A program made the position numbers and the translations under genes. Shown here in pieces: positions 17,311-49,535 of a DNA stretch of 64,000 nucleotides; within the stretch, counting starts at the first letter, position 1, and each line of letters begins with the position of its first letter. The stretch is from Saonia flava (GTDB taxonomy: Bacteria; Bacteroidota; Bacteroidia; Flavobacteriales; Flavobacteriaceae), in NCBI RefSeq assembly GCF_011927795.1, contig NZ_JAATJJ010000001.1, positions 1,923,062 to 1,987,061 of the forward strand, read 5' to 3'. Under the pieces are notes generated by a model, which saw nothing but the letters and a program-made list of their open reading frames with translations, made no database searches and was not told where the DNA came from.

Positions 17311-17415
17311 ATAAAAAAAGCCCAGTCATAAAACTGGGCTTTTCCTAAATAACCAACCAAACTTTAAATTATGAAAAACCAATACTTAAAGTAATAAGGG
17401 AACCACCCCTTATGT
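17311..17415 (-). ncRNA. Candidate small RNA A (shared 16-nt box plus terminator)
   Basis: Predicted transcript of about 105 nt between the patatin gene and the DUF3108 gene. Order on the minus strand: hairpin ATAAGGG/CCCTTAT; second hairpin ACTTTAA/TTAAAGT; unpaired box TTGGTTGGTTATTTAG (17360-17345); terminator hairpin AAAAGCCCAGT/ACTGGGCTTTT (17343-17316) ending in a 7-T run. A TAGATTTG box at 17421-17428, with TTTTG 16 nt further up, would start it. The same box, layout and length recur at 48.3 kb. It could instead be the 3' untranslated end of the patatin mRNA. No open reading frame of note. Possible relation to the flavobacterial Flavo-1 RNA is untested. Confidence 0.55.
17316..17343 (-). 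terminator. Intrinsic terminator of candidate small RNA A
   Basis: 11-bp perfect stem with a 6-nt loop. The long T run (seven T) is on the minus strand; on the plus strand the hairpin is followed only by four T and then CC. Confidence 0.85.
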
Positions 17416-17420
17416 TTATA

Positions 17421-17428
17421 CAAATCTA
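17421..17428 (-). promoter_or_regulatory. Candidate promoter of small RNA A
   Basis: TAGATTTG, an exact TAnnTTTG match, with TTTTG 16 nt upstream. Spacing and elements parallel those in front of small RNA B at 48.4 kb. Confidence 0.45.
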
Positions 17429-17571
17429 AGACAACTTTTAACTTCAAAATATGTTTTAACGTACTTTAACTATTGTCTTAACACTAATTTATAGATTACA
17501 ATTAAAATTTAAGGATTTGTTAGGAATAATGGGCTTTTACCATAGTGTTGACATCCATATTAGGTTCCTTT

Positions 17572-47465: not shown

Positions 47466-48314
47466 GTGAGAATCCAGTTAGAAAACATAAGTCCAGATAG
47501 TAAAAGTTCATTCAGGCTATTGCACAACCCAAGGCTCAACCATTTGTTTTTTTGGCATATACATCCAGAGTATGAACTAGTATATATAGAAGGGGCAAAC
47601 GGTACTCGCCATGTAGGCAGCCACATAGCCCAGTATAAAGAAAGCGACCTAGTTCTTATAGGATCCAATATCCCACACCTTAATTTTGACTATGGTATAC
47701 AAACAGATTATAAAAAAGAAGTATTACATATTAACCCAACGTTTAAAAACAATGTATTTAATGAGATTTCTGAACTGTCAGAAATATTCCAGCTATTTGA
47801 AAGATCACAACATGGCATTGCCTTTACAGGTCTCACTAAAGCAATTGTAGGGGAACGATTAAAAAAACTTCACGCTTTAACACCATTTCAACAATTTTTA
47901 GAAATACTTAATATTTTTGAAATTCTATCAACTAGTGATGAGTTTTTTTTGCTCCACGATAATCCAGTGGTAAACAAATACAACAAAAAAGAGCAAGAAC
48001 GATTGCGGAAAGTTTATGGTTTTATTGATGAACATTACCAAAGAAAAATTGAGGTTGATGAAGTGGCGGCTCTTTGCAATTTAGGAAAATCGGCATTTTG
48101 TAGGTACTTTAAAAAAGCAACTGGAAGTACCTTTATCGAGTTTTTGAATCAATATAGAATAGGTCAGGCAAAACGATTATTGTTAATGGGTAAAAATGTA
48201 AGCGAAACCTGTTATGAATGTGGTTTCGAAGGTCTTTCTTATTTTAATAGGACCTTTAAGAAGGTAGTTGGTGAAAATCCTTCCAAATTCAAGAAAAAGA
48301 TTTTAAATAGTTAA
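47466..48314 (+). CDS. AraC-family transcriptional regulator
   Basis: A 282-residue regulator with a GTG start at 47466. An N-terminal cupin sensor (about 20-150; FFWHIHPEYELVYIEGANGTRHVGSH) and a C-terminal double HTH (about 180-282) with IEVDEVAALCNLGKSAFCRYFK and VSETCYECGFEGLSYFNRTF. The cupin probably binds the imported substrate or a product. It is divergent from the PhyH-SSS-SDR genes over 130 bp and most likely controls them. Confidence 0.92.
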   Translation: MRIQLENISPDSKSSFRLLHNPRLNHLFFWHIHPEYELVYIEGANGTRHVGSHIAQYKESDLVLIGSNIPHLNFDYGIQTDYKKEVLHINPTFKNNVFNEISELSEIFQLFERSQHGIAFTGLTKAIVGERLKKLHALTPFQQFLEILNIFEILSTSDEFFLLHDNPVVNKYNKKEQERLRKVYGFIDEHYQRKIEVDEVAALCNLGKSAFCRYFKKATGSTFIEFLNQYRIGQAKRLLLMGKNVSETCYECGFEGLSYFNRTFKKVVGENPSKFKKKILNS

Positions 48315-48316
48315 AT

Positions 48317-48355
48317 AAAAAAACCGCCTCGAATATAAAATTTCGCGACGGTTTT
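48317..48355 (-). terminator. Intrinsic terminator of candidate small RNA B
   Basis: Stem AAAACCG/CGGTTTT with further CGAA/TTCG pairing inside. The seven-T run is on the minus strand, where no protein gene lies upstream; on the plus strand it is followed by CAAC. The AraC gene ends only 3 bp before it. Confidence 0.75.
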
Positions 48356-48423
48356 CAACTAAATAACCAACCAATACCCGTTAGTCGTATAAAACATATA
48401 TTCCTAACTTTCATTTATTAAAA
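48317..48423 (-). ncRNA. Candidate small RNA B (shared 16-nt box plus terminator)
   Basis: Predicted transcript of about 105 nt in the AraC-gpsA gap, where the minus strand has no upstream gene. On the minus strand: a 5' hairpin with GTTAG/CTAAC ends, box TTGGTTGGTTATTTAG (48374-48359, identical to that in small RNA A), then the terminator hairpin with T run. A TATATTTG box at 48429-48436 with TTG 15 nt upstream would start it. No reading frame. Same order of elements and length as RNA A, but different flanking and terminator sequences, so it is not a simple duplication. Confidence 0.6.
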
Positions 48424-48428
48424 TATTT

Positions 48429-48436
48429 CAAATATA
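48429..48436 (-). promoter_or_regulatory. Candidate promoter of small RNA B
   Basis: TATATTTG, an exact TAnnTTTG match, with TTG 15 nt further upstream. Spacing resembles the small RNA A promoter. Confidence 0.45.
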
Positions 48437-48533: not shown

Positions 48534-49535
48534 ATGAATAAACAATTGGAGTTTGCGGTCTTAGGTGGTGGTAGTTGGGCAACCGCTTTGGTTAAAATAC
48601 TTACTGAAAATTTAAGACAGGTAACATGGTATATGCGCAATGAAGATGCTTTGAACCACATAAAAATTGAAAAACATAACCCCAACTATTTAAGCTCTGT
48701 AGAATTTAGTACAGATCAACTAAATTTAACAAGCGACATTAATACTGCCGTAAAACATGCAGATATATTGATTTTTGCAATTCCTTCTGCATTTTTGGAA
48801 ACCGAATTAAAAAAATTATCTGTTTCCCTTAAAGATAAAATCATTTTTTCTGCAATTAAAGGTATCGTTCCAGAAACGGGACTAATTGTTGGCGAGCATT
48901 TCAATGAAGTATATGACATTCCCTTTGAAAACATTGGCGTTATAACAGGTCCTTGTCACGCAGAAGAAGTTGCCCTTGAACGCTTGTCTTATCTAACCAT
49001 TGCTTGCACAGACAAAACAAAGGCCGAATTGGTTGCTAAAAATTTAAGAGGTGATTATATAAAGACCAAAATATCTGATGATATTGTTGGTACGGAATAT
49101 GCTGCAATGCTCAAAAATATTTATGCCATTGCAGCTGGCATAGCCCATGGATTAGGTTATGGGGATAATTTTCAAAGTGTGCTTATGAGCAATGCCATAA
49201 GAGAAATGAAACGGTTTATCGGACGCGTGCATAAAATGAAGCGAAATATTAACAACTCTGCTTATTTAGGCGACCTTTTGGTAACGGGCTACTCAACTTT
49301 TAGTAGGAATAGAATGTTTGGAAACATGATAGGTAAAGGTTATACCGTGAAAAGCGCCATGATGGAAATGAGTATGGTAGCTGAAGGGTACTATGCAACT
49401 AAAAGTGCACATCTTTTAAACCAAAAACATAAAAAGAAATCCAAAACACCTATAATTGATGCGGTATATAAAATACTATACGAGAACAAATCTCCAAAAA
49501 AAATATTTATACAACTTACGGATCAACTAAATTAA
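48534..49535 (+). CDS. gpsA: Glycerol-3-phosphate dehydrogenase [NAD(P)+]
   Basis: A 333-residue cytoplasmic enzyme reducing dihydroxyacetone phosphate to sn-glycerol 3-phosphate for phospholipid synthesis. N-terminal Rossmann motif FAVLGGGSWATALVKIL, then FAIPSAFLE, FSAIKGIVPETG, VITGPCHAEEVA, and the catalytic Lys region EYAAMLKNIYAIAAGIAHGLGYGDN. Length fits. Its 3' end overlaps that of glpD by 4 bp, so the synthetic and degradative G3P enzymes face each other. Confidence 0.96.
   Translation: MNKQLEFAVLGGGSWATALVKILTENLRQVTWYMRNEDALNHIKIEKHNPNYLSSVEFSTDQLNLTSDINTAVKHADILIFAIPSAFLETELKKLSVSLKDKIIFSAIKGIVPETGLIVGEHFNEVYDIPFENIGVITGPCHAEEVALERLSYLTIACTDKTKAELVAKNLRGDYIKTKISDDIVGTEYAAMLKNIYAIAAGIAHGLGYGDNFQSVLMSNAIREMKRFIGRVHKMKRNINNSAYLGDLLVTGYSTFSRNRMFGNMIGKGYTVKSAMMEMSMVAEGYYATKSAHLLNQKHKKKSKTPIIDAVYKILYENKSPKKIFIQLTDQLN

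Follow-up and report, generated by a model that had tools for sequence, protein, structure and literature searches.

The 64,000-nucleotide stretch of the Saonia flava genome analysed here (the window) carries a gap of 219 nt between a gene for an AraC-type regulator and gpsA. A minus-strand RNA of about 105 nt, RNA B, had been proposed for this gap in an initial annotation, and the gap has no ORF of at least 100 residues on that strand. The features of the locus are listed in Table 1 together with those of RNA A, the predicted partner RNA with the same 16-nt box. The flavobacterial σA −7 element is given as TAnnTTTG at −12 to −5 in the sections of PMC9723704 at hand. The RNA B predicted with this rule folds with −25.0 kcal/mol (z −2.58). 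A simple terminator scan missed the B hairpin (0 found).

Table 1 Coordinates of the features at the two box-bearing loci of the window
Feature	Position	Strand	Remark
RNA B (predicted, 108 nt)	48317..48424	−	start by the TAnnTTTG rule, end at the last T of the run; +1 (48424) placed by the σA consensus in the sections of PMC9723704 at hand
TATATTTG, candidate σA −7 element of RNA B	48429..48436	−	fits the consensus; seldom kept in relatives
Box TTGGTTGGTTATTTAG of RNA B, 16 nt	48359..48374	−	exact match, directly 5′ of the intrinsic terminator
Local hairpin GACUAAC/GUUGGUU of RNA B	48365..48386	−	predicted fold; pairs part of the box
Terminator hairpin of RNA B	48319..48356	−	T run 48317-48323 (seven T); same place in relatives
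AraC-type regulator, other side of RNA B	47466..48314	+	
gpsA, glycerol-3-phosphate dehydrogenase	48534..49535	+	conserved neighbour of class B
RNA A (predicted, 104 nt, three hairpins)	17313..17416	−	same TAnnTTTG rule
Box of RNA A	17345..17360	−	exact copy
TAGATTTG, −7 element of RNA A	17421..17428	−	TAnnTTT[GA] at fixed place in 27/27 class A loci
Direct repeat GTTAAAGTACGTTAAA, operator-like	17455..17470	−	GTTAAA-N4-GTTAAA in 27/27 class A loci

The two RNAs had been described as sharing the box and the architecture only. Both loci indeed carry exact, minus-strand copies of the box, and apart from the box and its place before the terminator they have little in common. In the proposed comparison with genome-wide copies, the exact box TTGGTTGGTTATTTAG occurs in the 3.8 Mb genome in no forward and two reverse copies, those of A and B, which lie 31.0 kb apart, and the reversed pattern used as a control does not occur at all. 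With up to two mismatches allowed, the box gave 19 matches and its reversed control 15, which leaves the exact copies as the only distinctive ones in this genome. Of the 397 family genomes, 194 have the exact 16-mer and 203 lack it; the reversed control, counted by eye, was present in 11. A scan of named genomes gave at least 118 stretches with the box, mainly from Flavobacteriaceae. The distinct box contexts numbered 147, comprising 27 of class A, 87 called as class B and 33 others. Two script-called class B loci (L156 and L163), lying in coding DNA by eye, were dropped and 85 were kept; five of the 33 others resemble truncated or borderline class B, and 28 are coding or terminator-free, many of them in unrelated taxa. 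In 25 of the 27 genomes that have both exact copies listed on the same contig, the distance between the copies is 15.6–50 kb (by eye; not each pair was confirmed as one A plus one B), the exceptions being G264 (320 bases) and G174 (120 kb).

Since these contexts had been selected by the box, gpsA loci were also drawn irrespective of it. The gene was found in 39 of 41 genomes, and the best 30 of the 39 loci by score, one per genus and including our own, were searched for the box in 1.5 kb on the divergent side, with 20 shuffled boxes per locus as controls. The box was exact in 15 of the 30 loci, had at most two mismatches in 22 and at most three in 25 (14, 21 and 24 of 29, respectively, when our own genome was left aside). 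None of the 600 shuffled boxes matched with two or fewer mismatches and 32 of the 600 did so with three. The other five loci have no recognisable box (4–6 mismatches). Hairpin-like sequence follows the box on its 3′ side in the displayed rows of the 25 loci with up to three mismatches, and the box varies least in its first 11 letters, the last five being variable. The family-wide count and the 22 loci set against none of the shuffled boxes mean that the box at the gpsA locus is not a product of chance. Its presence in most of the genera examined bears out the suggestion of a functional family and not a recent copy. Absence of the box from related genomes, named beforehand as counter-evidence, was not the general picture, with the five gpsA loci and the 203 genomes without the (exact) box to be kept in mind.

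The same results decide a simpler reading of the locus. The B hairpin begins 4 nt past the AraC stop codon. Read on the plus strand it has four T behind it, and it may thus act as a terminator for the AraC transcript too. AraC-type-like genes are found next to B in some relatives as well (L022, L069 and L032; by eye). However, it is very improbable that the hairpin merely terminates the AraC-type gene and that the box matches by accident, as the box lies beside gpsA at the same place in most of the 30 genera whatever the other neighbour, and this reading was rejected on the family-wide excess of the box over controls and the gpsA-locus test.

A gpsA piece lies within 1.5 kb in all 29 distinct class B loci read (by eye). 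At 25 of these loci, a gene of some 300–345 codons points to the box and ends 3–102 nt before it, which makes the B module the 3′ UTR of that gene. Four of these genes have lipoprotein-like starts, and none of three tested gave a Pfam match. The gene family between gpsA and the box in L022–L072 is divergent to gpsA and has tails such as NPRENTR. In our own genome the lipoprotein-like gene is missing at the B spot, the only place covered, and the same-genus genome G001 is without it at that spot as well. In G001, B is retained with a fold z of −5.56 and a box with three mismatches, and a longer version of the local hairpin is predicted (L032); the TAnnTTTG promoter is not kept.

Within 250 nt upstream, TAnnTTTG occurs at only 4 of the 85 B modules, where shuffles predict 10.1, and at 21 of the 27 A loci, where they predict 6.2. 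With a frequency of 0.83 per kb on the minus strand, the chance of one match somewhere in the gap is about 0.18, and the match of B would be notable only through its distance, which is similar to that of A. No GTTAAA-type direct repeat was seen upstream of our own B. If a conserved promoter of its own is taken as the mark of an independent sRNA, class B lacks it, as the 4 of 85 loci and G001 demonstrate. The idea that B is an independent RNA of about 105 nt like A can therefore be kept only in part, and is not supported for B modules in general: TATATTTG predicts 108 nt here (104 nt for A), but the promoter is found near few B modules and is absent from G001, and most of the modules read follow a gene. 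B is a real, conserved module, the weak part being its status as a stand-alone RNA, which rests on one promoter match in our own genome.

These data also suit the view that B is only a 3′ UTR or terminator element, serving stability or termination, of the gpsA-divergent lipoprotein-like gene, which would make it an orphan here after gene loss. The position behind that gene in 25 of 29 loci, a promoter motif rarer than in shuffles and the decayed box of G001, where the gene is also absent, all speak for it. Yet the same box occurs in the sRNA A and after other genes, our own copy is exact despite the absence of the lipoprotein-like gene at the spot, and G001 retains a B that folds well. Moreover, GGTTGGTT precedes only 5 of 252 terminators in the sample from our own genome vs none in control windows, and two of these five are A and B while one lies inside an ORF. 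In a genome of the large genus g151, probably Flavobacterium, it precedes 0 of 256 terminators (controls 0). These numbers contradict the box as a general terminator signal and indicate a special class. We therefore hold the pure 3′ UTR reading to be quite unlikely.

RNA A is flanked in the window by a patatin-like gene and a DUF3108 gene; in relatives its upstream gene resembles a 4-hydroxyphenylpyruvate dioxygenase gene. The class A architecture consists of a 5′ hairpin with a covarying lower stem, a near-invariant second hairpin, the box and a covarying terminator. In this structure, 97.8% of 775 cells are paired and 42 two-sided changes were counted vs 12.9 in shuffles, none of 500 shuffles reaching as many. 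The direct repeat GTTAAA-N4-GTTAAA precedes the −7 element by about 42 nt and looks like a response-regulator site; many class A rows have an extra GTTAA unit further upstream. A has a conserved promoter, structure and terminator of its own, as an independent sRNA would, and class A is, judged from the aligned loci, one structured sRNA with a conserved promoter, a direct repeat and covarying stems. The plus strand of the invariant block (17345-17416) reads like a translation start (CTAAATAACCAACCAAACTTTAAATTATGAAAAACC...). A leader peptide on the reverse strand of A (ATG AAA AAC CAA TAC TTA AAG TAA) was considered and set aside because the promoter and the T run point the other way.

When the A model was run against 296 genomes of the order, matches at E ≤ 0.001 were obtained in 56. 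The ten close homologues (E below 1e-24, our own included) all contain the exact box. Three of the 13 weaker stretches are clearly related (class C), L373 carries GGTTGGTT, and the rest look terminator-only; a fourteenth stretch, L377, was left out. Diverged homologues are found in g151, where the box reads TTGGTTRGTTAATAG; it was exact in 25 of the 25 genomes tested and lay inside an A-model match in 18. A second A-like sRNA with the box TTGGTTGGTTAGTTA was found in three genomes and in L213. The second match of model R1 in our own genome resembles a tRNA beside a terminator and was discarded as chance.

A model of the box–terminator module gave matches at E ≤ 0.05 in 30 of 30 genomes, most of which had been chosen for carrying the box; 23 matches in 18 stretches were read, several of them singles. 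In our own genome, a box GGTTGGTTAGTTG, whose last letters vary, and a terminator follow a gene coding for an Arg/Ser-rich tail (C1:163731-163793, minus strand; L408). That gene gave no Pfam match, and its module also occurs in four relatives (L418–L421; by eye). L408 contains TTAGTTG, an exact complement to the 7-mer CAACTAA, which ranks second for enrichment in our own start regions (−30..−3). In class C, an Hsp20-type gene ends in GGTTGGTTTGTTTAGTTGGTTAGTT-like sequence followed by the terminator (L365 by Pfam; L369 and L370 by eye), and L422 has the same arrangement by eye. Six modules lie within about 16 kb in L414 (G018:C7:100000-118000), mostly as CATATGGTTAGTTTGGTTAGTTT before CCGCTC hairpins; this multicopy set is reminiscent of FopS. 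A stretch from Pedobacter changchengzhani, outside the Flavobacteriaceae (L180), has tandem CTAAATAACCAACCAA-like units before an ATG, one of them an exact complement of the box, and was excluded from the family as a leader-like repeat.

The initial annotation had treated the box as unpaired, which the predicted folds do not confirm. In our own B, the GGUUGG part of the box is paired (unpaired probability 0.03–0.3), and in our own A the box is mostly open (0.68–0.92 over 13 positions). Single-sequence folding of 26 class A loci gave the box a mean unpaired probability of 0.48–0.54, no more than the 0.53 of a shuffled box; the 85 B loci gave 0.48 vs 0.38 for the shuffled box. The box is unpaired in the class A consensus structure. 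Taken together, the models give no clear picture of an open box.

Pairing of the box is possible with AACCAACC and, through G-U pairs, with AACTAACTAA. Motifs of this kind were sought in 336 start regions of our own genome (−30..−3, with the first ATG as the start), taken from a 400-kb sample and the window. CAACTAA, which needs a G-U pair to match the B/A box, was seen 10 times vs 1.3 expected (rank 2 of 5370), and the 6-mers AACTAA, CAACCA and AACCAA ranked 3, 11 and 17 of 3208. The exact 7-mer complements of the box ranked lower (CAACCAA 60, AACCAAC 256 and ACCAACC 1065 of 5370). Enrichment was weaker in start regions of g151 (AACCAA 58 and AACTAA 202 of 2574). In terms of duplex energy, 3 of 40 shuffles were as good as the box against the 336 regions, both for the mean and for the top 20, while the g151 box was equalled against g151 start regions by 27 of 40 (mean) and 10 of 40 (top 20). 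Mid-gene windows paired with the box nearly as well as start regions.

Among single candidates, a fumarylacetoacetate-hydrolase-like gene is the top predicted target of the box, and a POT-family transporter has CTAACCAACTAAG before its start. Orthologues of the latter were sought in 30 genomes, with a match at E ≤ 1e-100 in 13 and none in 17. With the discovery case excluded, ACCAAC lies no more than 35 nt from the start in 4 of the 13 (by eye; related species and not independent), vs a background of 6 of 353 own genes and 6 of 516 other genes. The direct target tests are thus weak for the duplex energies and only suggestive for the POT leaders. SusC-type leaders, expected at first to be the main targets, were given up, their complementarity to the box being mainly of the G-U kind by eye. 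Here, there were 57 matches in our own genome, 15 of them over the cut-off; of 30 loci obtained, the leaders of 28 were read, L276 having no ATG and L267 and L273 being the same gene.

Comparison of the loci shows the box–terminator module, its link with gpsA and its distribution over genera. We give an even chance to the explanation that B is a gpsA-linked member of a set of terminator-bounded RNAs and that its box is probably an antisense seed. A conserved UUGGUUGGUUA box directly 5′ of a terminator hairpin would define this module set of the Flavobacteriaceae. In most species, B would be released from, or act within, the 3′ UTR of the lipoprotein-like gene, and here, where that gene is absent from the spot, B may have TATATTTG as a promoter of its own. 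Close to the start codon, mRNA leaders would offer AACCAACC/CAACUAA-type motifs to which the box binds, G-U pairs included, so that translation is altered, and probably lowered, without Hfq. RNA A, RNA B and further 3′-UTR modules would then share overlapping targets. A wider scheme, which we consider doubtful, is an Hfq-free network in which GGUUGGUUAGUUG-type boxes are anti-leader seeds directed against the CAACUAACCAACC-type translation leaders of the family. Its boxes would be carried by one dedicated sRNA (A) and by a varying set of mRNA 3′ ends, such as those of the lipoprotein/gpsA locus and hsp20.

The main rival takes the box as a protein-binding site, for an RNA chaperone, a nuclease guard or a sponge, on A and on several 3′ ends including that of B, with the protein reading repeated GGUU units. 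UUGG/GGUU units are repeated in A (loop of hairpin 2 and box), in B and in further modules, and hairpin 2 of A is almost invariant in 25 sequences selected by the box only, beyond the needs of a short seed. There is also a precedent: RbpB, an RRM protein of Bacteroides, binds the members of a family of paralogous sRNAs in their single-stranded parts, according to the sections of PMC11697453 at hand. On the other hand, searches of our own genome with two profiles, Hfq (PF17209) and RRM_1 (PF00076), gave no match, with 5 and 2 of 14 control genomes matched, respectively, and the enrichment in start regions suits a seed better. We regard this rival as rather unlikely. The antisense seed thus ranks first, the protein site second and the pure 3′ UTR reading third.

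The Flavobacteriaceae are widespread, few of their sRNAs have been described, and Hfq was not found in our own genome. With box and RNA in about half of the sampled family genomes and without a match in Rfam, the antisense-seed modules would offer a testable entry to Hfq-free mRNA regulation. OmrA and OmrB, twin sRNAs of Enterobacterales, have a common seed and differ in the rest, are Hfq-dependent, carry the seed at the 5′ end and are encoded by adjacent genes. A and B likewise share a box only; unlike OmrA/OmrB, they are 31 kb apart, have the box at the 3′ side and belong to a genome without an Hfq match.

Rfam 15 gave no match in the window at the gathering score, and B, our own A and one A homologue of g151 gave sub-threshold matches only. 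Flavo-1, a flavobacterial RNA motif (PMC9723704, sections at hand) and in this respect akin to A and B, was not among them. No description of the box or the RNA was found in the literature searched, which consisted of open-licence full texts, and B would be one of a group of apparently undescribed Flavobacteriaceae RNA elements sharing the GGUUGGUUA box just before the terminator. Rfp18 of Flavobacterium psychrophilum, the nearest known system by taxon, is, as described in the same sections of PMC9723704, a structured sRNA conserved across its genus and predicted to pair with mRNA. By that description alone it resembles A and B in coming from the same bacterial family, in being structured and in its predicted mRNA pairing; it pairs through its third stem-loop.

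The paralogous FopS/GibS sRNAs of Bacteroides thetaiotaomicron, the nearest known system in presumed mode of action, have a short block in common and occur in 12–15 copies (PMC11697453, sections at hand). By their description there, they differ from A and B in several respects: the seed of FopS is in the 5′ region, whereas the A/B box is on the 3′ side before the terminator; mostly 0–2 exact boxes per genome are found here; and FopS/GibS have the RRM protein RbpB, while our own genome has no RRM_1 match. As far as these sections go, the likenesses are that FopS/GibS too belong to Bacteroidota, share a short block, include one 3′-UTR-derived member and have a promoter of the σA type (FopS), and, as proposed for A and B, pair at translation starts in a group of bacteria without classical chaperones.
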